From a virus: 23,533 nt of DNA. The notes beneath the pieces are model-generated. The model was not told where the DNA came from. It ran no database searches and was given only the letters and a program-made list of their open reading frames with translations. The stretch is from positions 1 to 23,533 of IMG/VR virus record IMGVR_UViG_3300042507_003783; one strand, written 5' to 3'. Shown here piece by piece: positions 5,639 to 22,754 of the stretch. Within the stretch, counting starts at the first letter, position 1, and each line of letters begins with the position of its first letter. The position numbers and the translations under genes were made by a program.

Positions 5639-5806
5639 TTAATCTTCGCGGTTGCGCAAGGGATACGTCACCATCCATGCAAACAAAGTTGCAATAGTGG
5701 CTACTCCTACTACGTCTTTTGCGCTGCCATCAAGCACAATCCAAGCGATAAACATACCCAGCAATGTCCATAGTTGGTCGAGCATATCTTTCAGGAATTT
5801 AATCAT
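5639..5806 (-). CDS. Very small two-TM membrane protein, 55 aa
   Basis: Open frame from ATG 5806 (overlapping the upstream stop by ATGA) to TAA at 5639-5641. Two hydrophobic segments ([14 protein letters not shown], about residues 12-25, and [15 protein letters not shown], about 32-46) are separated by a short DGSAKD turn; the ends are charged (MIKFLKDML and PLRNRED). This hairpin topology is common among small phage holins. It is coupled to the large secreted protein upstream. Confidence 0.75.
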
Positions 5807-8091
5807 TTACGTCGTCTCCTAACGGCCTTACTATCTCCAGTTGGCGCACCGCCACCTGAACTGCTGCCTCCAGTTGACCCTCCAGTCGTTGTTGCAGCGG
5901 CTGCTGCGGCTGCTGCTGCGGCATTAATAGCAGCACCTGCAGCGACTACAGTTGCTACAACCATTTGTGTTGCTTCTTCGCGTTCTTCTGGTGACATGTC
6001 TGCACCAATACTTCCCAGTGCAAGAAGAACTTGACCTGGGTCATCAAATATTTCGCCAATTAATTCTGAAGGGTTTTCAAGGAGGGTGAGGGCTGCTGCA
6101 ACTTCTGCAGTAATGATAACTGGATTACCCTCTTCATCGGTTCTAACATCAACAGGTGTTTCAGGAGGCAAGTCACTGTAAGTAATTCCAGCCTCTTGTA
6201 AAGTCTCGCTAGATACGGCTTCCCCTGGTTGTAGGTTTTCCACAATCGCTGTGACAACAGCAGTTACCTCTGCGGCTGTTAACTTGCCATCAGCAAGTGC
6301 GTCAGAGATGACGGTTTCTGGTGTAGGCTGTGGGGATGATTCTTCAGACTGATTTTCTTGCTCTTGGTTGTCTTGTTCTTGCTCTTCTGATTCTTCAGAA
6401 GGGGGTGCGTCCACAGGGTCCTCGGTTCCGTCAGTTTCTTCGGGGGATGTGGGTTGTGACTCTTCTTCTGTGGGGGTCTGCTCTTGCTCTGTATCTGAAT
6501 CAGTAGGTTCCTCAGATGAGTCTGGTTGTTGATTATCGTCATCTACAGGAGCATCTTCAGGATTCTCTTCATCGGTTGGGGTGTCTGACGGAGTGTCATC
6601 TTCTGGAGCATCCGTTGGCTCCTCTTCCTGATTTTGTGTTTCCTCTTCGGAAGGTTCTTCTGGATTCTCTTCAGGAGATTCAGGTTCTGCAGTCACTGGT
6701 GACTCCACAGGATTCTCTGGTTGAGGCTGAGGCTCTGGTTGAGGTTCTGGAGCCGTGGGTTCAGAAGGAGGAGTAGGTGAAGAAGGTTCTGGTTGTGGTG
6801 TTGGCTCTGGCTGCGGCGTTGGTGTTGGCTCTGGTTGTGGTGCGGGAGTTGGCACAGGTTCTGGAAGAGGCTGAGGAGTAGGTGATGGAGTTGGTTCTGG
6901 TGTTGGTTCCACTACTGGTGGGACTACTGGTGTGGGTGTTGGTTCGATGGGAACAGGAGTAGGCGTTGGAGTTGGTTCTGGGGTTGGTGTTGGGGTTGGT
7001 GTTGGCTCTGGGGTTGGTGTTGGGGTTGGTGTTGGTTCTGGTGTGGGCGTGGGAGTCGGAGTGGGCTCAGGTGTTGGCGCGACAGGAGTCGGAGCAAGTT
7101 CAACAGGTTGAGTAACTTGGGTAATACCTGCTTGCTCTAGCGGAACTACTGTTCCGTTTTGTAATCTAGCACCCGTGCGTTCGCCTCCATACAGCGGACC
7201 ATCTACTGTGTATGTATAAGCAACAGTTCCATCAGTTTGAACCTGTCCTGTAATAACAATTTGTGTTACTTCACCAGTCATAGTTCCAAATCGTCGATAA
7301 GCACCGTCTACTTGAAAACCACCATCACTTGTCCTAATAATGAAGTGTGTATCTGGCATTTGATTAGGCAGTGCCCACCAGTCACGAGATTCAATTGAGA
7401 TAGATGGAGTATTTGGGTAGGTCCAGTAAGTCCCATCAGGCTGACCAAAGGTAATCACGGAATTTGTAGTAGCATACACGTCCGTATATGTAACGCCGTT
7501 AAACACAACTGATGTTGTTAACGGAATTCTGTAGGAAGTGTCGTCTCCACCAGCAGTAACTGTTTCTGTTACAACAGGTGGCGGAGTAAGTTGAGAGGTA
7601 ACTAATGGGTCAGATGGTGTGGTTTCTGTTTGGTTTGGGGTTGGGGTTGGCTCTGGACTGGGTGTTGGTGAAGGTGATGTTGAAGTCTCTGAAGGAGAGG
7701 GTGAAGGCTCTGGAGTCGGTGATTGAGTTGGACTCGGCTCAGAAGATGGAGCGGGTGTTGGCTCTAGAGTCGAGGTTGCGGTTGGAGTCGGAGAAGGTTC
7801 AGGAGTTGGTGATGGAGTTGAAGTTTGCTCAGGCGAAGGTGATGGCTCTGGAGTTGGACTTGGAGAGGGTTCGGTCGAAGACTCTGTGGAAGGAGTAGGT
7901 GTTGTCTCTGGACTTTGTGTGGGTTCTGGGGTTGGCGCTGTTGTTTCTTGTGGCGCAGGTGGCGCAGAGGTTGTTTCCTCTGCATGCGCAGGAAGAATCG
8001 ACAGAAGCAGATAAATAAATGCTGCCCCTAGTAAAAAGTTTAAACGACTAAAGAAACCAGATTGTGCTGCGGATGAACGCAGTAAGTTCAA
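5803..8091 (-). CDS. Very large secreted or membrane-anchored Pro/Thr/Glu-repeat protein (about 762 aa)
   Basis: N-terminal hydrophobic signal or anchor (about residues 17-37, [19 protein letters not shown], with AHA as a signal peptidase-like site), then about 140 residues of Pro/Ser/Thr/Glu repeats, a beta-rich globular domain of about 150 residues ([20 protein letters not shown], reminiscent of nidogen-like domains), a second PTPTPEPTP repeat tract, a very acidic Glu/Pro/Asp tract, a C-terminal alpha-helical region with an EF-hand-like ADGKLTAAE, a run of alanines and an RRRRK end. There is no ATG: TTG at 8091 has GAGGGG four bases upstream; another TTG at 8127 lacks a binding site. The design resembles a wall-spanning surface protein and is unusual for a phage. 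Possible roles are host-surface modification, superinfection exclusion or a virion fibre; none is shown. Confidence 0.85.
6971..7060 (-). repeat. 30-bp tandem repeat encoding the [10 protein letters not shown] units
   Basis: Units 6971-7000 and 7001-7030 differ by a single base; 7031-7060 is a third, diverged unit. Each encodes ten residues of Pro-Thr-rich linker. The near identity suggests recent expansion by slippage or recombination, so linker length probably varies between relatives. Confidence 0.85.
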
Positions 8092-8135
8092 GAAACCCCT
8101 CGGAATCTTTTGGTTTGTGCCCCTCAAAGACTAGT

Positions 8136-13525: not shown

Positions 13526-13651
13526 TCACAAAGATTTCTTGTGTTTCTTCTTCCTTGTATAGACTTTTTTAGAGGGAACAGGGGTAGCAGCATTAGAGCG
13601 CCTCAATTCCTGGACCTTCTTTACCCTGGCAGGGTTAGGGGCCTTCTTCAT
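13526..13651 (-). CDS. Very basic 41-aa protein
   Basis: Open frame from ATG 13651 (ATGA overlap with the upstream stop) to TGA 13526-13528. Product starts MKKAPNPARVKKVQELRRSN and ends YTRKKKHKKSL, with about one third Lys/Arg. It could bind nucleic acid. It is the last gene of the coupled accessory chain before the thioredoxin gene. Its tight overlap supports it being real despite its size. Confidence 0.6.
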   Translation of the reverse strand: MKKAPNPARVKKVQELRRSNAATPVPSKKVYTRKKKHKKSL

Positions 13652-13971
13652 CGCTCTTTGTGCTCTCCCAAGACCATAAAGCCATGAGGAGATGAGAAGA
13701 ACTTCTCATGCTCAACATTTCCTGATTCTACTTTTACATTGTCACTAACTGGTGCAACTCTATAGACCTTTACTGGATGACGCTCACGTCCTAGAGGAAG
13801 TTTAGTCTCACCAAAGAAGCGTGCTTGACCAGGGTCACTGGTAGCCCACGCACGTGCGACAGGTCCTTCACCTTCAGTTACCGCAGGTAGGATGAATCCA
13901 CCACTTACATCTGCACGAGTTCCGTGGTACATAGGGCCAAACTGTTGCTCAGAGAGATTGCGACGAATCAT
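13648..13971 (-). CDS. ADP-ribosyltransferase-like protein (Arr type) with N-terminal LSEQQF motif, 107 aa
   Basis: The fold signature of rifampin-ADP-ribosyltransferase-like (Arr) proteins is visible: MYHGTRADVSGG (H16-G-T), then ARAWATSDPGQARFFG and VKVYRVAP. Arr enzymes transfer ADP-ribose from NAD to a small molecule or protein. Length is shorter than Arr by some 30 residues, and the distal catalytic Asp/Glu cannot be placed with certainty, so activity is not assured. The N-terminus MIRRNLSEQQF carries the motif shared across this block. I chose ATG 13971, which overlaps the upstream stop (ATGA), over ATG 13983. Confidence 0.75.
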   Translation of the reverse strand: MIRRNLSEQQFGPMYHGTRADVSGGFILPAVTEGEGPVARAWATSDPGQARFFGETKLPLGRERHPVKVYRVAPVSDNVKVESGNVEHEKFFSSPHGFMVLGEHKER

Positions 13972-14129
13972 ATGCTCCACCATCCATTAGGAGAGCCGTT
14001 TGGGTTTTCTTCTTTCCACTTAGTGTGGGCATCGTTAACTGTACGCCAATTAATCTCATGAGTAGGTTTGCCACATAATGGGCATGGGTCAACGCCAGTT
14101 AACTTATAGACGTGCTCGCATGTGTTCAT
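13968..14129 (-). CDS. Zinc-ribbon mini protein, 53 aa
   Basis: Open frame from ATG 14129 to TGA 13968-13970. Residues CEHVYKLTGVDPCPLCGKPTH show a C-x-H pair and CPLCGKxTH, ligands for one zinc, followed by INWRTVNDAHTKWKEENPN and a C-terminal GWWSI. I know similar short phage proteins with C-P-L-C-G and a tryptophan-rich end; role unknown. The start shares a base with the preceding stop (TAATG) and the stop overlaps the next start, so it is in the coupled chain. Confidence 0.72.
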   Translation of the reverse strand: MNTCEHVYKLTGVDPCPLCGKPTHEINWRTVNDAHTKWKEENPNGSPNGWWSI

Positions 14130-14515
14130 TAGATACCTCTAAAGTAAGCGCTGTTTGTAATTGGGTCTCTACCTGCTCGTGCCTCAATATACGGGTTTAA
14201 TACTGATGCCACATGTTTTTTTACAATAAAACCTATATTACTAGAACGTGCTCCAGGAAAGTCTTTACTTGATGCATCAGAGTGTAAGTTAGGGGCAAGT
14301 GGTTCTACTTCGTAAATATTTCCGTGATGTGGATGCTTACCCACAGAGTCAAACCCTAATCCGCTGCTAATGCGGTCTTGAGCGTGTTTCTCTGCATCTG
14401 CCAAACTAGGTGTTGCCCAGGCAGCAGCACCGCTATGGCGAGGCTTTACAAGGTCACCTGGCTTTAGTGTTTCGATAGTACCGTGAAATAACGAATCAGA
14501 TAAAGGAGCGCTCAT
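14129..14515 (-). CDS. ADP-ribosyltransferase-like protein (Arr type), 128 aa
   Basis: Starts MSAPLSDSLFHGTIETLKPG: an LSDSLF variant of the block motif runs directly into the HGT that begins the Arr-type fold. GDLVKPR follows as in Arr (G-D-x-I/V), then AAAWATPSLADAEKHAQ and GNIYEVEPL, the strand with a Tyr-x-Val-x-Pro pattern. These match the Arr-type NAD-binding core. It may modify a host protein or small molecule such as rifampin; target is unknown. Coupled by ATGA to the ParB-like gene upstream and by TAATG to the zinc protein downstream. Confidence 0.78.
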   Translation of the reverse strand: MSAPLSDSLFHGTIETLKPGDLVKPRHSGAAAWATPSLADAEKHAQDRISSGLGFDSVGKHPHHGNIYEVEPLAPNLHSDASSKDFPGARSSNIGFIVKKHVASVLNPYIEARAGRDPITNSAYFRGI

Positions 14516-14838
14516 CGGTTGCTCCTGTAAGGATTATTTGGGTCTTGGAACTTAATTGGTTGTCCACTCTTCATGGCAGCAATGACCCTGTGATGTCCGT
14601 CTGTCACTCGTTGAGACATACGGTCTACGGATATAGGTTCTTTTATTCCTTCGCTCTTAACGCTCTCTTCAAGCAAGGCTTGTCGTTCAGCACCAGCACG
14701 ACCAAATAGTCTGTGCCCTGGTACTTCTTCCCAGTTGTTTCCGTACTCACTTGGTTTGTACAGTTTGGTAAAGGTTTCTACAGGCCATTCTAAGTGCGAA
14801 TTAAACTGCTCACTTGAAAGGTTATCTTGGGCGCTCAT
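14512..14838 (-). CDS. ParB/sulfiredoxin-fold-like protein with N-terminal LSSEQF, 108 aa
   Basis: Starts MSAQDNLSSEQF. The C-terminal half carries ESVKSEGIKEPISV and VTDGHHRVIAAMKSGQ, the fold core of ParB-N/sulfiredoxin-like proteins, where a G-H-x-R-type loop binds a nucleotide phosphate. Only this core is present; there is no ParB helix-turn-helix or C-terminal domain. YKPSEYGNNWEEV matches the corresponding stretch of the gene at 18875-19165 (YQPSEYGATWSEV), so the two are close paralogs. ATG 14838 has AGGAG about six bases upstream. Confidence 0.8.
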   Translation of the reverse strand: MSAQDNLSSEQFNSHLEWPVETFTKLYKPSEYGNNWEEVPGHRLFGRAGAERQALLEESVKSEGIKEPISVDRMSQRVTDGHHRVIAAMKSGQPIKFQDPNNPYRSNR

Positions 14839-15107
14839 TTTATACTCCTACGGATTTGGTCCATCTTGTATTTAGAGCCTGGGTCTTTTTGAATTTTGCC
14901 CCAGTTCTTACGCATCATCTTTACTTGACCCTTATCTGCTGCAGGCCATTTAAAAGATTCGCCATTTTCAGGAGTAACTATAGATATGCGTCCTGGTGCA
15001 TCTGGGATTGTCTTGCCATCACGGGTAGACATGCCTGCAGGTGTTTGAACAATTCTAAAAGCAGTACCGTGATGCTTACCAAATTGAATGTAGGAGTTAT
15101 TACTCAT
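14835..15107 (-). CDS. Unknown basic protein, 90 aa
   Basis: Not recognised. Starts MSNNSYIQFGKHHGTAF; the S-Y-I-Q-F piece may be a decayed form of the LSxxQF motif, and the HGT recalls the ART genes, but no ART core follows. The rest is a small alpha/beta sequence (GRISIVTPENGESFKWP) with a basic C-terminal helix (KMMRKNWGKIQKDPGSK). ATGA overlaps on both sides. Confidence 0.7.
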   Translation of the reverse strand: MSNNSYIQFGKHHGTAFRIVQTPAGMSTRDGKTIPDAPGRISIVTPENGESFKWPAADKGQVKMMRKNWGKIQKDPGSKYKMDQIRRSIK

Positions 15108-15550
15108 GCCTTCTTCTCCCTAGGTGGGTTAAAGGTGCGCTTGCGAGACTTAACTGCCTCTCCTGATTTGCGTAAGTTAGTCACTCCAGTAATTTTAACA
15201 GGAGCGCCTTCTCTTACCATGACTTCTTTTTCTTCATGAGGGTCTTGGCTACTAAAGTTTGCAAAACCACCTTGTCGCATTGTTTCCGTGTTTGTCTCTA
15301 CAGAAGACATAGGAACTTGTGCATGCACCACGTGTGCGTAGTCAGTACGCCAGTGTGGTGTGAGAGCACGGCTGTTAGGGCTATTGGCAAACTCCTTAGC
15401 CACCTGTGAGTCTGCACTCCAGTGAGTACCTAGGTTGTTCATATCCAATTTGTATTGTGACGACTTGCTACCTTTAGGATAATGAGGGTACGAGGTATTA
15501 ATGCCACGATGTGCTTCAAAAAATAACTCATTAGATAATGTAGAGGTCAT
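15104..15550 (-). CDS. ADP-ribosyltransferase-like protein (R-S-E type), 148 aa, copy 1
   Basis: Motif order resembles arginine-type ADP-ribosyltransferases: FEAHRG (Arg15), GTHWSADSQVAKEFA (Ser45, in place of the S-T-S strand) and HEEKEVMVREGAPVKITGV, an ExE-like EKE at 107-109 with the following strand as in toxin-type ARTs. In those enzymes R, S and E hold NAD and catalyse transfer. It begins MTSTLSNELF, a variant of the block motif. It is a clear paralog of the next gene (identical VPMSSVET segment). Fold call is by eye; an inactive fold relative is possible. Coupled by ATGA on both sides. Confidence 0.68.
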   Translation of the reverse strand: MTSTLSNELFFEAHRGINTSYPHYPKGSKSSQYKLDMNNLGTHWSADSQVAKEFANSPNSRALTPHWRTDYAHVVHAQVPMSSVETNTETMRQGGFANFSSQDPHEEKEVMVREGAPVKITGVTNLRKSGEAVKSRKRTFNPPREKKA

Positions 15551-16023
15551 GCTGTCATCAACCTTGGCTGCTTGTACCTGCGAGTACGTGGCTTTGTTTG
15601 TACTTCTTTTGAAAATCCAGGTATTGCGTAAGTTTCTTGACTTGGGCGCTCTATTTTTCGGTATTTTGTAATACCAGTCACCATCACAGGTGCGCCAGGT
15701 CGTACTGATACTTCCTTTTCACCCTCAGCCATACCACGAAATTGTGGGTTGGAAGAGTTGCGGTCAAATACACCGTGCTGACTCATAACTTTTCTATCAG
15801 TCTCTACAGAACTCATGGGCACCTGCGCATGGATAACTGTGTGAGGCTGTCGCTGGTCTGACCGATACCATTCATTTGGATTGTGCGTTTTGCCTCCACC
15901 TGAAAATTGTCGTGCCACACCTTCATCTGTAGACCAGTGCATACCTAGGCCAGTATCTTTTCTAGGAGATTGTTTTAAACCTCTATGTGCTTCAAAGAAT
16001 AACTCATTAGATAAGTTGCTCAT
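15547..16023 (-). CDS. ADP-ribosyltransferase-like protein (R-S-E type), 158 aa, copy 2
   Basis: Paralog of the previous gene with the same motif positions: FEAHRG (Arg14), MHWSTDEGVARQFS (Ser31/Thr32), HAQVPMSSVETD, and AEGEKEVSVRPGAPVMVTG with EKE at 102-104. The HWST here is closer to the S-T-S of R-S-E ADP-ribosyltransferases than in copy 1. Starts MSNLSNELFF. The C-terminal 35 residues are basic (KPRTRRYKQPR) and unlike copy 1. The two genes differ in inserted loops, so the duplication is old. Confidence 0.68.
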   Translation of the reverse strand: MSNLSNELFFEAHRGLKQSPRKDTGLGMHWSTDEGVARQFSGGGKTHNPNEWYRSDQRQPHTVIHAQVPMSSVETDRKVMSQHGVFDRNSSNPQFRGMAEGEKEVSVRPGAPVMVTGITKYRKIERPSQETYAIPGFSKEVQTKPRTRRYKQPRLMTA

Positions 16024-16364
16024 TTGTGCTCCACAGGAACTAGCATCTTAGGGTCAATTGCCATAGCAGAGGCAATACGATGATGACCATCTATAACTTT
16101 GATTCCAGGTCCATATGCTGGACCAATTTCTACAGGCTTTTGAACACCATGTTCTTTAATAGAGTCGTAAAGACCTTTTCGCTTTGCTTGACGTACTTTA
16201 CGAGCCATAACAACTTTGGCAACTCTTTGATAGTTGCCACCTCCACCACGATTCCAAATCTCTGCTTGCACATCTGTTAAAGGCATTCCACGAAGTTCTT
16301 TGGCAGGCTTGAACATATCTAGTTGTTCAAACTGTCCTTTGCTGAGGTTGTCTTGAGCGCTCAT
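16020..16364 (-). CDS. ParB/sulfiredoxin-fold-like protein with N-terminal LSKGQF, 114 aa
   Basis: Starts MSAQDNLSKGQFEQLDMF, then PAKELRGMPLTD. The core is SIKEHGVQKPVEIG, then IKVIDGHHRIASAMAIDP and a C-terminal MLVPVEHK shared with the next two genes. The DGHHR loop is the phosphate-binding signature of ParB-N-like folds. A basic helix-rich region (VVMARKVRQAKRKG) precedes the core. TAATG coupling with the gene upstream and ATGA coupling downstream. Confidence 0.8.
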   Translation of the reverse strand: MSAQDNLSKGQFEQLDMFKPAKELRGMPLTDVQAEIWNRGGGGNYQRVAKVVMARKVRQAKRKGLYDSIKEHGVQKPVEIGPAYGPGIKVIDGHHRIASAMAIDPKMLVPVEHK

Positions 16365-16738
16365 TATTTTTGGTGCTCCACAGGGATTAACATGTTGGGG
16401 TTGATATCGTAAGCAGCAGCAATACGGTGATGTCCATCGCTTACTACCCCTCGTTTATACACGCCCCAATGACCTTGACCTAATTTTACAGGTTCCTCAA
16501 CTCCTCTATCTTTGATGCGGTTATACATTCCGTTTTTTTTGGTTTCATCAAGTTTTTGAGCCATAACGTATCCTTTAACATCCATGTCATGGTCTTCACG
16601 TTCTATGCCTTCTTGAAGTTTAAGTCGGGAATGTTCAGCCTCTACGTCATTAAGTTCATGGCCGTATAACTCTTTAGCGGTCTTAAACATTTCTGTTTGA
16701 TGCCACTGTGCTTTAGATAGATTGTCTTGGGCGCTCAC
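16364..16738 (-). CDS. ParB/sulfiredoxin-fold-like protein with N-terminal LSKAQW, 124 aa
   Basis: GTG start at 16738 gives MSAQDNLSKAQWHQTEMF, matching its neighbour residue for residue in the first nine positions; a GTG three codons earlier (16747) is less likely. The core has RIKDRGVEEPVKLG, VVSDGHHRIAAAYDINPN and MLIPVEHQK. The middle is an insertion rich in acidic residues (LQEGIEREDHDMD). The start overlaps the upstream stop (GTGA). Tandem paralog of the genes on both sides. Confidence 0.8.
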   Translation of the reverse strand: MSAQDNLSKAQWHQTEMFKTAKELYGHELNDVEAEHSRLKLQEGIEREDHDMDVKGYVMAQKLDETKKNGMYNRIKDRGVEEPVKLGQGHWGVYKRGVVSDGHHRIAAAYDINPNMLIPVEHQK

Positions 16739-17073
16739 CAGTCCCACCCTTTTTCGTGTGGCTCCTTGTGCTCGACAGGAATTAGCATATTGGGATTAAC
16801 ATCCATAGCAGATGCGATGCGATGGTGTCCTTCTCCTAGCATCGGCCCTTTAGCGCCGTGAATAATCTCGACAGGATTTTGTACACCAATCTTTTTAATA
16901 GATTCGTACATACCTTTTGAATCTTCCCACTTGTCCTCTTTGGCCGACTTGAGTTTGCGTGCGAGCACCTCTTCATTGGACTCGCCCCTGTGCGCGTCCG
17001 TCATGGGCATCTTCGCTATTTCCCGCGCAGGCAAAAACATAGCCAACTGATTACTTGACACACTTCGACTCAT
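16735..17073 (-). CDS. ParB/sulfiredoxin-fold-like protein with degenerate LS motif, 112 aa
   Basis: Start at ATG 17073 (ATGA with the upstream stop) gives MSRSVSSNQLAMFLPAREI, where VSSNQL replaces LSxxQF. Core: SIKKIGVQNPVEII, GEGHHRIASAMDVNPN and MLIPVEHKEPHEKGWDW. The usual Asp before GHHR is Glu here. A TTG start at 17088 is possible but lacks a binding site. It is third in the tandem of three similar genes. Confidence 0.8.
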   Translation of the reverse strand: MSRSVSSNQLAMFLPAREIAKMPMTDAHRGESNEEVLARKLKSAKEDKWEDSKGMYESIKKIGVQNPVEIIHGAKGPMLGEGHHRIASAMDVNPNMLIPVEHKEPHEKGWDW

Positions 17074-17627
17074 TGCATGTGCTCCCAACGAGTATCTCTG
17101 AATTCTTCTTGTGATAGGTGCCGCCCGCCCTCTAATTTTGGAACATCACCGCCGACCTTCTTTGCCCATGCATCGCCTTCTTCTGTTCTCACTGCAGAGT
17201 GCTCTGGCTTTGGGAAACCTGGCATTGTTTCGTGAAGGTGCTGTGCTACTTCCCATAGAGAAGTTGCAACGCCCTGACGACGATGCTTAGGACTAGTTTC
17301 TACAACAGATACTTCTCCAGTATCGGCCAATACCATGCGACCACGAGATTCATTACCTTCTCCTACATGAAGAAGGAGATGTGGTTGATGTCTATGCATA
17401 TTTGGCCAATAGTCAACAAATGCTGGATTGCCTTCTTTATCTTTAAACTTCATACGAGCAGCATGTGGTTGGTCTGGATGACGGTCTTGAATATGATTTA
17501 TTTGACCTTCAGTTTTAAAGAAAGAGGCAGGGCAATGTGGGCACCCCATACCAGGGTGATTGATTACTGTTCGACCGTTCTCTGCCTTGGTTACAGGCAA
17601 ATCACCGCCATGCTCATCTGTTCTCAT
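17070..17627 (-). CDS. Zinc finger-GNAT acetyltransferase-like fusion, 185 aa
   Basis: Residues 29-50 form a C2H2-type finger (CPHCPASFFKTEGQINHIQD, ligands Cys29, Cys32, His45, His50). From about 85 to 160 a GNAT-like core follows: GEVSVVETSPKHRRQGVATS contains the acetyl-CoA pyrophosphate loop RRQGVA (116-121) after a beta strand, followed by the expected helix and a later AVRTEEGDAWAKKVGG. GNAT enzymes transfer acetyl from acetyl-CoA to amines, including toxins that act on aminoacyl-tRNA. The C-terminus has HLSQEEFRDTRW, a possible C-terminal version of the block motif. Finger plus GNAT is an unusual combination. Coupled to both neighbours. Confidence 0.72.
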   Translation of the reverse strand: MRTDEHGGDLPVTKAENGRTVINHPGMGCPHCPASFFKTEGQINHIQDRHPDQPHAARMKFKDKEGNPAFVDYWPNMHRHQPHLLLHVGEGNESRGRMVLADTGEVSVVETSPKHRRQGVATSLWEVAQHLHETMPGFPKPEHSAVRTEEGDAWAKKVGGDVPKLEGGRHLSQEEFRDTRWEHMQ

Positions 17628-18874: not shown

Positions 18875-19165
18875 TTACTTTACCTGACCTTCATATAACT
18901 CTGAGGGGGAATGTTCAAATGGAATATGCTTATCTGCATCCATAGCAGCAAGGGCTCTGTGGTGTCCATCAACGACTTTACCTCCATAAACCATTACTGG
19001 AGTATGAACACCCCGTTCTTTGACATCCTTGACCATCTCATCATGGCTCATAGTGCCCTCTATAGGGCGATTAAACTCTTCGCTGCCCCGTACCTCTGAC
19101 CATGTGGCCCCGTATTCGGAGGGCTGGTAGGTCTTGGCAAACTGGCTGGCTGATAGCGATGGCAT
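18875..19165 (-). CDS. ParB/sulfiredoxin-fold-like protein with N-terminal LSASQF, 96 aa
   Basis: First gene of the leftward series. Begins MPSLSASQFAKTYQPSEYG; core DVKERGVHTPVMVYGG and KVVDGHHRALAAMDADKH, then IPFEHSPSELYEG. It has the same layout as the gene at 14512-14838, with a shared W-x-E-V stretch. The DGHHR loop is intact. It is the shortest of the five family members, close to a minimal domain. Upstream lies the long non-coding region, so its promoter is probably between 19166 and 19300. Confidence 0.8.
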   Translation of the reverse strand: MPSLSASQFAKTYQPSEYGATWSEVRGSEEFNRPIEGTMSHDEMVKDVKERGVHTPVMVYGGKVVDGHHRALAAMDADKHIPFEHSPSELYEGQVK

Positions 19166-19288
19166 AACCGTAGTTTATGGCTACTGCCTAGCCGCCACAT
19201 CGTCAACCATGTCTCTCACCTGGCTGTTCATTTCGTGATTTGCGTTTAATGGTGGGGGGTCATTTGTTAGTGACAAACAATTAACATC

Positions 19289-19313
19289 ACCACCTGACTA
19301 CTAATCAGGTGGT
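19289..19313. terminator. Strong 9-bp hairpin, terminator-like
   Basis: ACCACCTGA (19289-19297) pairs perfectly with TCAGGTGGT (19305-19313) around a 7-base loop. On the plus strand it is followed by TGTTGTTC; on the minus strand by GATGTTAATTGTTT. It may stop transcription from either side or be part of the repeat-rich control region. Confidence 0.45.
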
Positions 19314-19330
19314 TGTTGTTCAACTCATGC

Positions 19331-19460
19331 GTTGTTATCAGGTGTAACAAATAACTTGGTGACAACTTTGGTGACAACACTTCGGCTACTGTGCAATTAG
19401 CAACATGGTCTGTGCGACACCAACCAAGCCAACAGACCACTTGGCTAGTTGTTATCAGGT
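19331..19460 (+). repeat. Direct repeat GTTGTTATCAGGT, two copies
   Basis: Identical 13-base copies at 19331-19343 and 19448-19460. Between them TTGGTGACAAC also occurs twice in tandem (about 19356-19377). The ATCAGGT core recurs in the hairpin at 19289-19313. Confidence 0.6.
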
Positions 19461-19467
19461 AATCACA

Positions 19468-19493
19468 CACCGCGTTAATAACGCACCGCGTTA
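19468..19493 (+). repeat. Direct repeat CACCGCGTTA with internal palindrome
   Basis: CACCGCGTTA at 19468-19477 and 19484-19493. Overlapping it, GCGTTA-A-TAACGC (19472-19484) is a perfect inverted repeat. Directly followed by the CTAT microsatellite. Confidence 0.6.
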
Positions 19494-19518
19494 CTATCTA
19501 TCTATCTATCTATCTATC
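19494..19518 (+). repeat. CTAT tetranucleotide microsatellite, six units
   Basis: Six CTAT units plus one base. Further interrupted CTAT/TCTA runs lie around 19825-19860. Such tracts can change length by slippage and might alter spacing between control elements. Confidence 0.85.
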
Positions 19519-19982
19519 GAGTTAGTTATGTTGTTATGTGTTCTGCCCACATGACTTACTGTGCGACTCACATAGTTACTATGACTAACTCAGTTGTTCC
19601 CTAGTAGTTAAGTGGAGTTACTTAGTCACACTAGACATCTTGGTAAGTAACTTCTGAAGTAGTCGTGGAGTTAGTTATCTATCCACAGGCTAAGTGAGTT
19701 ACTTCTGGTTCTGCTGTGGCGAGTTACTTCTATTCTGGTTATTTATCACTATTACAAACTTTGTATTGTTTTTATTTGATTACTGACTAACTGAGTGTAG
19801 TTACCGAGTTAGTTATGTGGGTATCTCTATTCTCTCTATCTAACTTCTATCTATCTATTACATTCTTTGTATTAGTCATTACTGAAAAGAAAAACTCTTG
19901 GCGCGAATAGTTATGTGGGGGCGCACGCTCAAACACGAACTAACTTCGTGACAGGGGGTGGAGATACCGAGTGAGTTACTTT
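19519..19982 (+). repeat. Family of GAGTTA(G/C)TT boxes, iteron-like
   Basis: Plus-strand copies at about 19519, 19615, 19668, 19696, 19721, 19806 and 19973, plus inverted ACTAACTC at 19584-19591. Two sub-types are seen: GAGTTAGTTAT (19519, 19668, 19806) and GAGTTACTT (19615, 19696, 19721, 19973). A related ATAGTTATGTGGGG is at 19907. Spacing is irregular. Clustered short direct repeats are typical of replication initiator or repressor binding. Confidence 0.55.
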
Positions 19983-20063
19983 CGATTTACGGGTCATACA
20001 GGGCTTACAGGCACACAGGGGCGCATAGGGCTAGATAGTTGAACTTTCAACTAAGTCACCTAC

Positions 20064-20094
20064 GCCTGAGCGTGGGAAACGCCTGTAATCAGGC
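20064..20094. other. Nested stem-loop
   Basis: GCCTGA (20064-20069) pairs with TCAGGC (20089-20094) and encloses GCGT-GGGAA-ACGC (20070-20082). It could belong to a structured RNA or origin element. Confidence 0.35.
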
Positions 20095-20346
20095 TGGCGA
20101 ACTGAGTCGGTCAGTTATGGCATAATTGGCTCAGCGCACGCGACCAACGCGGTTCGGAAAAGTAGCACCTGTCGAGTGATTCCGAATCGTTAGTAATCAG
20201 AGTGGTAAAAGGCTAAACGCAATTACAAACTGCGGTGTATCTGTTTATAGAACTTCGGTTCGCGGTTGATAACCAAAACAGAGTGACGAAAGAGTTTAGG
20301 TGCGTAAATTAAATAGTGACTAAGCAGAACGCGATTACTAATTGTG

Positions 20347-20412
20347 TTCGTGTTAATTAACATGACGATTTACCAATAATGAATCTACTTATTGCTAACG
20401 GATTAACACGAA
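20347..20412. other. Extended inverted repeat, 11-bp outer stem with inner 6-bp stem
   Basis: TTCGTGTTAAT (20347-20357) is the exact reverse complement of ATTAACACGAA (20402-20412). Inside, CAATAA and TTATTG form a second stem. A small AT-rich hairpin (AATAAA-AAC-TTTATT) follows shortly downstream. This may be an origin-type cruciform or a non-coding RNA. Confidence 0.4.
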
Positions 20413-20747
20413 TCTTTTACATTACGAAAGTTGGGAATAAAAACTTTATTGCCACGACTTATTACACGCCATGACTAACTCACTTACTCAATGAGTAATT
20501 AGTTACGAGCGATTAAATGTAATAACGAGCGACAAAGTAATAAACGACAACAACGAAACGAATACGAAAGTATTTGTGCATAGCGTTTGGCTTAGACGGA
20601 TTGCGGAAAGTAATTAACTCAATGAATCAGTTGCTCATGGATTGCTAACTCTAAGTTAGTGCCGACAGTAACCAATCTGCTCAATAGAACAATGAAGGCA
20701 ACTGACTACATGAGTTATTCATACTTAGTAATTCGCTTATGTGTTTT

Positions 20748-20765
20748 TAAGAACTCATGTTCTTA
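20748..20765. promoter_or_regulatory. Operator-like palindrome TAAGAAC-TCAT-GTTCTTA
   Basis: Perfect 7-bp arms with a 4-base centre, about 80 bases upstream of the first rightward gene. The size and symmetry fit a dimeric repressor site. Confidence 0.45.
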
Positions 20766-20769
20766 CTGT

Positions 20770-20822
20770 GATTGTTACCGATACCGATTCTGCGAATGAG
20801 ATTCGGTAACAATCGCGGTATC
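20770..20822. promoter_or_regulatory. 12-bp inverted repeat with overlapping alternative stem, upstream of the rightward operon
   Basis: GATTGTTACCGA (20770-20781) is the exact reverse complement of TCGGTAACAATC (20803-20814). A second pair, GATACCG (20780-20786) and CGGTATC (20816-20822), overlaps it, so the two stems exclude each other. This could be a repressor site or, if transcribed, a switching leader. The first gene starts at 20843. Confidence 0.5.
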
Positions 20823-20842
20823 TACATAAGAAAGGCAACACA

Positions 20843-21019
20843 ATGCAAACAAACAACACATACAAAGTAGGTGACCTATTCACTTCTACTCGGTCAGGCG
20901 TAACAGGAACAATCGAAGAGATTGTTGTTGTTCGTTCTGACTTAGTGAAAGTGCGGATAGATGTAGAAGGCAAATCGCGCTGGACTACATGGACTCCACA
21001 GAACGGCATAACTAAATAA
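20843..21019 (+). CDS. SH3-like mini protein, 58 aa
   Basis: Open frame from ATG 20843 to TAA 21017-21019 with AAAGG about 8 bases upstream. The sequence YKVGDLFTSTRSGVTGTIEE, then VKVRIDVEGKSRWTTW, has the short-strand pattern of an SH3/KOW-like barrel: V-G-D, a T-G-x-I turn and a final W-T. Such small barrels are common in phages and may bind nucleic acid or protein; role unknown. First gene of the rightward operon, directly after the operator-like repeats. Confidence 0.75.
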   Translation: MQTNNTYKVGDLFTSTRSGVTGTIEEIVVVRSDLVKVRIDVEGKSRWTTWTPQNGITK

Positions 21020-21359: not shown

Positions 21360-22754
21360 ATGACAACAAACTACGGAACACTAATCGTTTCACAACCTGC
21401 TGATGTATCAGTTACTCGTCAGGTATTTATCGCAAACTTCAACGGCGTTGTTGTAACTCGCTGGAGATTAACAAATGGAAAGCAAGGTAAGCAGAACGCA
21501 TGGCAAAGAGGTGCGTTTCAATTCGATAGTGGTGAGCAACTACTTGGAGAGCCTGTTGCGATTCCTGTTTCAACTGGTGATGTTGAAGATTACGAAGCAG
21601 AAGGATTCCCACGAGTTCTGATTCAGAAACTAATTCGTAAGCACTCACTATCAGACCAAGAACTCGGTGATGAAGCGATTGTTGTTGCTGATTCACTTGC
21701 CGATACTGTTAAGAACAATCCTTCTGCTCTTGCTCAGTATTACACCGACAATCGTGGGCAACGCTCTACAAAGTCTGATTCACCTATTCGCATTGAGTAT
21801 GCAGAACAAACTGTTTCTGTATCTCAATCAAAACTCGTTGAAGAGCGTTCTCTATTCATTCCAAAGTTAGATGAGTTCTCTCACTACATTCAGCGCACCT
21901 TTGCTGGTGGCGTTGATGAACTAACTGTTTATCACTTTGCATTGAAGAACAAACTAAATGTTCTTCTGTACGGAGATGCTGGTACAGGTAAGACTTCATC
22001 TTCAATGTGGATTGCTTCATTACTTGGCGTTCCATACTTTGCGATTCCTTCTAATAGCGCACTTGATTACACACAGATTGTTGGCGGTTATGTTCCAAAC
22101 GCGAATGGTTCTTTATCGTGGGTTGATGGCGCAGTAACGCGGTTAGTTCGTGCTGGTGGAGTTCTTCTTATCGGTGAAGTAAATACACTTGCTAAGAATG
22201 TTCAACAATTCCTAATGCCACTACTGGACTATCGCCGTTCAATTACAATCATGGAGAATGGCAACGAAGTAATTAAGGCGAACGACAATCTCTTAATTAT
22301 CGCTGACATGAATCCAAACTATCGCGGAACTTCTTTAATGAATGAAGCATGGAAAGACCGCTTTGAGATAAAACTCAATTACGGATACGACAAGAGTATT
22401 GAGAAGAAGATTCTGAAATCAGAATCTCTTATTGACCTTGCGTATGGAATGAGGTCGCGTTCTCGTGGTGCTGATGAGATTGCTACAACTGATAGCAACA
22501 CAATCTTTGATACACCTGTTTCAACTCGTATCTTGAAGACCTTTGAGAAGTTAGCAACAGGTCTTAACTTTGATTTCGCTTGCGAAGTCTTTGTAAATAA
22601 CTTCGACCAAAACGAACGCCCTGCGGTTCGTATGTTGTTAGAAGCAAATGCCTACAATCTAAAAGAAGATTTAGGTATTAACGATTCAGAATCGTCTGTC
22701 ACTTCTACTCGTGACAGGATTGTTGAAGAACACTTAACTGGTCTTGATTCCTAG
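21360..22754 (+). CDS. MoxR/CobS-like AAA+ ATPase, 464 aa
   Basis: AAA+ motor with Walker A GDAGTGKT (205-212), Walker B VLLIGEV (268-274), sensor-1-like ADMNPNYRG (315-323) and arginine finger in AWKDRFEI (Arg334). The insert YTQIVGGYVPNANGSLSWVDG is typical of MoxR/CobS/NorQ-type ATPases. In those systems the ATPase works with a VWA-domain partner as a chaperone or metal insertase; the next gene fits. The usual Asp of Walker B is Gly, leaving only the catalytic Glu. The first 170 residues are a phage-specific N-terminal region. GAGAGAG lies upstream of ATG 21360. Confidence 0.9.
   Translation: MTTNYGTLIVSQPADVSVTRQVFIANFNGVVVTRWRLTNGKQGKQNAWQRGAFQFDSGEQLLGEPVAIPVSTGDVEDYEAEGFPRVLIQKLIRKHSLSDQELGDEAIVVADSLADTVKNNPSALAQYYTDNRGQRSTKSDSPIRIEYAEQTVSVSQSKLVEERSLFIPKLDEFSHYIQRTFAGGVDELTVYHFALKNKLNVLLYGDAGTGKTSSSMWIASLLGVPYFAIPSNSALDYTQIVGGYVPNANGSLSWVDGAVTRLVRAGGVLLIGEVNTLAKNVQQFLMPLLDYRRSITIMENGNEVIKANDNLLIIADMNPNYRGTSLMNEAWKDRFEIKLNYGYDKSIEKKILKSESLIDLAYGMRSRSRGADEIATTDSNTIFDTPVSTRILKTFEKLATGLNFDFACEVFVNNFDQNERPAVRMLLEANAYNLKEDLGINDSESSVTSTRDRIVEEHLTGLDS

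Follow-up and report, generated by a model that had tools for sequence, protein, structure and literature searches.

A predicted long structured RNA and short DNA boxes in a divergent non-coding region of an actinophage-like virus

The main finding of this work, and the strongest feature of the region studied, is a structured RNA predicted at the right-hand end of a divergent non-coding region, which the first-pass annotation of the same DNA had missed. The window (the whole stretch of 23,533 nucleotides that was analysed, from IMG/VR virus record IMGVR_UViG_3300042507_003783) gave a fold z of -5.1 on the + strand at 20090-20845. When RNAalifold was applied lineage by lineage and compared with column-shuffled alignments, z ranged from -7.7 to -20.5 on the + strand in four lineages and was less on the - strand, where the signal is also large, the helices forming on both strands. 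Lineage-wise alignments were needed, as RNAalifold on the raw all-lineage MAFFT alignments failed for the left block of the region and recovered only P3 in the right one. The same P1, P2 and P3 helices and the long hairpin P5 (Table 1) were obtained from four lineages analysed separately, together with more helices upstream, and in each of the four P5 comprised 16-26 bp, with 5-13 pairs changed on both sides. In the three-way-junction core, 16 of 18 pairs were changed on both sides among 21 sequences, a level reached by none of 500 shuffles, and the covariation score was 0.685 vs 0.257 after shuffling, a control that kinship among the sequences can inflate; pairing was kept in 89.7% of cells and fell to 22-44% when the partner was slid, a comparison biased in favour of the core, whose structure was drawn from the same 21 sequences. 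The held-out contigs L045, L093, L008, L010 and L128 were found by the RNA model at the same place, and the model, R1, occurs as one copy each in nine contigs of 49-97 kb. The predicted fold is, as far as sequence analysis goes, the only well supported part of the region. Tandem units of the ACGAGCGA..AATGTAATA type were also seen inside the predicted RNA, at 20505-20553.

The region that ends with this RNA consists of three parts: a near-gapless left block, a variable middle, and a promoter-like site with about 710 nt of foldable + strand after it (Table 1). All mechanically called ORFs lying wholly inside it are of 67 aa or less, and the counterpart gaps in three relatives of 87-97 kb are the largest of their genomes by far (1.5-2.1 kb vs 0.5 kb or less elsewhere). 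To its right, the operon that starts at 20843 encodes in order a 58-aa ORF, a 95-aa ORF, an AAA_5 ATPase and a VWA protein. The host of the virus is likely to be actinobacterial, since the closest match of the terminase is in Streptomyces phage BRock (53.5%) and those of the ATPase are in Gordonia and Brevibacterium phages (37-39%).

Table 1. Coordinates of the features of the divergent region and its flanking genes, as positions in the window.
Feature	Position	Strand	Remarks
First leftward gene	18875..19165	-	weak ParB-like match
Divergent non-coding control region, whole	19166..20842	.	~1.68 kb
Conserved left block	19176..19463	.	~280 bp near-gapless alignment of 35 sequences; motif spacing fixed
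Inverted repeat ACCACCTGA-CTACTAA-TCAGGTGGT	19289..19313	.	
TNATCAGRT box 1	19302..19310	+	position-conserved
TNATCAGRT box 2	19335..19343	+	position-conserved
Two TTGGTGACA repeats, 12 bp apart	19356..19376	+	TTGRTGAC pairs in relatives
TNATCAGRT box 3	19452..19460	+	position-conserved
CTAT microsatellite	19494..19518	+	length lineage-specific: 24 bp in the window, <=16 bp in relatives
GAGTTAGTT box	19519..19527	+	
GAGTTACTT box	19615..19623	+	
AGTTACTT core, inverted copy	19645..19652	-	
GAGTTAGTT box	19668..19676	+	
GAGTTACTT box	19696..19704	+	
GAGTTACTT box	19721..19729	+	
GAGTTAGTT box	19806..19814	+	GAGTTACTT in L002 and L004
Conserved (TCTA)n + GTATTAGTCATTACTGAAAAGAAAAAC + GCGCGAATAG block	19846..19928	.	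near-invariant in close group; 27-mer exact in 7 contigs
AGTTAGTT core, inverted copy	19938..19945	-	
GAGTTACTT box	19973..19981	+	
Extended -10-like site TGGCATAAT	20118..20126	+	predicted RNA start ~20133
Predicted long structured leader RNA	20133..20842	+	~710 nt
Three-way-junction core	20625..20709	+	P1 20625-20634/20698-20707, P2 20645-20649/20655-20659, P3 20664-20668/20677-20682
Long hairpin P5	20737..20829	+	closing TTATGT/ACATAA; just 5' of ribosome-binding site
Ribosome-binding site AAAGG	20831..20835	+	
First gene of rightward operon, 58-aa ORF	20843..21019	+	aligned in relatives
AAA_5 ATPase, then VWA/CobT-like gene	21360..22754	+	

Rfam, searched at gathering and at relaxed thresholds, returned only tRNAs and chance matches, with no GOLLD or ROOL match, and no description of this RNA was found in the open-access literature, a coverage outside which most subscription papers and bioRxiv preprints fall. 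We give even chances to the idea that it represents a new class of large phage RNA (500-750 nt), absent from Rfam and present once per genome in a broad uncultured actinophage-like group, with a promoter wired to fast-evolving DNA boxes and with analogues in cultured Gordonia phages, that possibly serves as a riboswitch-like leader, as an RNA-based origin or as an RNA assembly. Few large structured RNAs are known from phages, and what the best studied of them, GOLLD and ROOL, do is still poorly understood (PMC12286853). Like these, the RNA of the region is large, elaborately folded, phage-encoded, single copy and sometimes near tRNA genes (PMC12286853), but it has no Rfam sequence-structure match to them, lies directly upstream of a protein operon and is preceded by DNA box arrays. 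A free-standing RNA of the GOLLD/ROOL type, instead of an operon leader, would account for a length of 500-750 nt, many covarying helices, a single copy in phages and the tRNA genes adjoining it in some of them; nonetheless we hold this to be a minority possibility, given the missing Rfam match, the lack of a detected terminator after the RNA and the position of the last hairpin, which ends at 20829, 1 nt before the AAAGG at 20831 that precedes the ATG at 20843. Since the scan, which cannot settle the point, found no terminator between the RNA and the first ORF, we prefer the term leader to free RNA, although without proof. As for its other end, the start near 20133 is one that we infer, because a plain sigma-70 consensus scan of the window found nothing; the candidate promoter matches the consensus only weakly, and many relatives have a TGn-(-10)-like site in a comparable position.

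Relatives were gathered from IMG/VR through the ATPase, a 27-mer, an RNA motif and two left-block patterns, and were grouped by sequence into lineages A-E, the window belonging to D. The left block is held by 38 non-redundant contigs, and the right-hand RNA core was present in every left-block contig long enough to include it, with unchanged order and orientation; L128, which was found later through its RNA core only, likewise carries the left block. Part of the RNA-motif pattern also matched contigs judged unrelated by their context (L041-L043, L046, L049 and L052-L057). The left-block pattern had no match in GTDB genomes, and four GTDB genomes with the RNA-core pattern were discarded as chance, the two Shewanella loci among them scoring no more than 14.7 bits and the remaining two falling short of E 10. 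A tRNA-Gly gene adjoins the left block in lineage A (L048, L105, L112), and four tRNA genes lie near it in L010 (2622-3082).

The left block is read as acting at the DNA level, because the evidence for an RNA fold is weak there. Its TNATCAGRT boxes, also missed by the first reading of the sequence, keep fixed positions and occur at 1.83/kb in the element vs 0.11/kb outside, a 17-fold enrichment. In the alignment of the block there are also an inverted repeat, CACCTGA..TCAGGTG, a pair of GGCTACTG motifs and two TTGRTGAC repeats 11-12 bp apart, and a related site, TNATCAGG, is found at 20086-20093, immediately upstream of the promoter-like site.

Between the left block and the promoter-like site, the first-pass annotation had described a GAGTTA(G/C)TT family of boxes beside a CTAT microsatellite, in non-coding DNA between divergent gene blocks, and in this it was largely right. 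Seven exact direct GAGTTASTT 9-mers occur at 19519-19981, where it had counted at least seven, in the two sub-types proposed (GAGTTAGTT three times and GAGTTACTT four times), all inside the 19166-20842 gap and next to CTAT repeated 6.2 times at 19494-19518. The inverted copies that it mentioned exist for the 8-mer core AGTTASTT (two) but not for the exact 9-mer, which has none in the 23.5 kb; likewise, there are no exact direct copies elsewhere in the window. Counting both strands, AGTTASTT occurs 9 times, while in 200 dinucleotide-shuffled versions of the stretch it averaged 0.17 copies and never exceeded 2, and its density is 14.2/kb in the stretch vs 0.14/kb in the rest of the window.

The middle that carries these boxes spans about 19463-20090 in the window and varies from about 0.3 to 1.4 kb among relatives. 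Comparison with the latter, which had been put forward as the way to challenge the boxes, showed that the sequence family is kept but that position and number mostly are not. The number of AGTTASTT copies is 2-8 in lineage A, 5-9 in D, 1-3 in B (a slight enrichment) and 0-1 in C, and lineage E is not enriched; in A and D, which are distant, the enriched boxes lie at the same place, at 6-16/kb vs 0-0.8/kb. Among the aligned relatives, the 8-mer core of the box at 19806 is intact in L001, L002 and L004, that of the box at 19973 is unchanged in L001 and L004 but differs by one base in L002 and L006, and the box at 19519 is absent from all of them. The leading G is not fixed either, two boxes reading AAGTT.. 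in L001, which is 99.4% identical across the shared 4 kb. Since lineages C and E nearly lack the AGTTASTT boxes, the element as such cannot depend on them. The boxes would fit DNA sites of fast turnover, and neither an RNA helix nor a regular iteron array.

An RNA helix would be expected if the box array were itself RNA, with GAGTTA and TAACTC as the two sides of long helices in a single 1.6-kb RNA running through the whole region. The window middle folds with z -3.55 on + vs -1.45 on -, inverted AGTTAGTT..AACTAACT pairs occur in lineage A, and the left domain is always accompanied by the right one, in the same order, all of which would suit such an RNA. It is nevertheless very improbable in our judgement, as the folding of the middle has no consistent strand preference (L002, L007 and L097 fold better on -), the boxes move within a middle of such variable length, and in L058 (7007-7381) and L104 (3205-3576) the middle contains, on the opposite strand, an ORF that sequence motifs indicate to be endonuclease VII/HNH-like. 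A multi-site DNA-binding array, on the other hand, is plausible for the AGTTASTT boxes, because two distant lineages share their enrichment at this place and folding there lacks a consistent strand preference. The multi-site operator that had been suggested earlier would be such an array beside promoters, which in this region are predictions. The stoperators of cluster A mycobacteriophages, a short site bound by a single phage protein, are present in many copies scattered through the genome. The boxes described here are alike in being a short site in multiple copies, but they are gathered in one region instead of genome-wide.

Two further proposals made for the boxes, a replication origin and a partition-type site, found little favour in the data. 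For the origin, the boxes would be iteron-type initiator sites, the pyrimidine/AT-rich stretch an unwinding element and the RNA a primer or an RNA-based origin. This agrees with the fact that the gap is the largest of the genome, divergent, with repeated boxes, a conserved pyrimidine tract and an adjoining structured RNA, and that in cultured relatives the same gap parts a helicase/primase block from the AAA/VWA operon. There is also a precedent for an RNA-based origin in the prophages of non-RepA mycobacteriophages (PMC7157519), since the replication of cluster A prophages depends on a non-coding RNA adjacent to parABS (PMC7157519). Both cases involve an actinophage and an intergenic region, for maintenance or control, with a non-coding RNA in it; however, the cluster A origins are of 400-500 bp, lie next to parABS and were shown by deletion (PMC7157519), whereas the present RNA is predicted from sequence, with no ParA among the flanking proteins scanned. 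Against an origin, the spacings between successive direct boxes are irregular (96, 53, 28, 25, 85 and 167 bp), without regular helical-turn spacing, DnaA boxes occur at 0.26/kb inside vs 0.37/kb outside, and the helicase and polymerase genes of G002, a 96-kb relative and the one checked, are about 30-37 kb away. The GC-skew switch that had been recommended as a check was uninformative, as skew follows gene strand. On balance an origin is unlikely, although the mycobacteriophage precedent leaves origin models, above all an RNA-based one, a real share of the probability. Neither an iteron array of the classic kind nor an origin with DnaA boxes is supported: direct repeats are present, but their spacing is irregular, and DnaA boxes show no enrichment. 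No Rep-like initiator match was found for ten proteins encoded in or near the window, the nearest leftward gene having a weak ParB-like match only. A partition-type site is not supported either: the flanking proteins scanned include no ParA, and only weak ParB-like matches occur in small leftward proteins.

We therefore return to the leader RNA and the DNA boxes, and hypothesize, with somewhat better than even confidence, that the region serves an actinophage-like virus as a composite divergent control region, in which protein-bound DNA boxes lie upstream of the promoter for a long structured leader RNA. A putative phage-encoded DNA-binding protein would occupy the TNATCAGRT boxes at their fixed positions and the related site upstream of the promoter and, in the lineage of the window and one other, the same protein would also occupy the AGTTASTT boxes of the variable middle. 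Transcription in the two divergent directions might then be set by box occupancy. From the rightward promoter, at about 20118, would come the leader of about 710 nt, with its hairpins, its three-way junction and the long hairpin that ends at the ribosome-binding site. This leader could either control the AAA/VWA operon or be processed away from it. The AGTTASTT and TNATCAGRT sites are concentrated in the divergent gap, while the promoters are only inferred. The earlier description of a master control region is partly supported, by the largest gap in three relatives and by a unit kept in 38 contigs.

Among cultured phages, blastn of the region found no match. A divergent non-coding gap does precede small ORFs and the AAA/VWA pair in Gordonia phages GMA6, Gray and ScarletRaider and in Brevibacterium phage Cantare; as RNA model R1 matches none of the four, these gaps are analogues in place and not shown homologues. 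In GMA6 the gap contains boxes of the GTAAGTACTT type, a stretch of TATCTATC and TTGACA-N17-CATAAT, and the predicted transcript is foldable (z -2.3). The Gray gap also has a promoter-like site and a foldable RNA, and the Gray group folds slightly better on + (z -2.5 vs -0.1), which is weak support. A further RNA family that keeps one genomic location, is linked to a single operon and lies beside DNA boxes that can be dissected may offer a handle on the role of such RNAs, and with a similar gap before the same operon in cultured Gordonia phages the question becomes testable in laboratory strains.

Other observations concern genes outside the region. In G002, a serine-type integrase match in the rightward block (L027:15558-16832) suggests that this relative may be temperate, and a queuine tRNA-ribosyltransferase-like gene lies at L028:425-1927. 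In the window, 13648-17088 encodes runs of paralogous small proteins that start MS..NLS.., along with a recurring DGHHR motif, and several of these proteins match ParB-like proteins weakly; 5803-8127 holds a 774-aa ORF with long Pro/Thr/Glu repeats.
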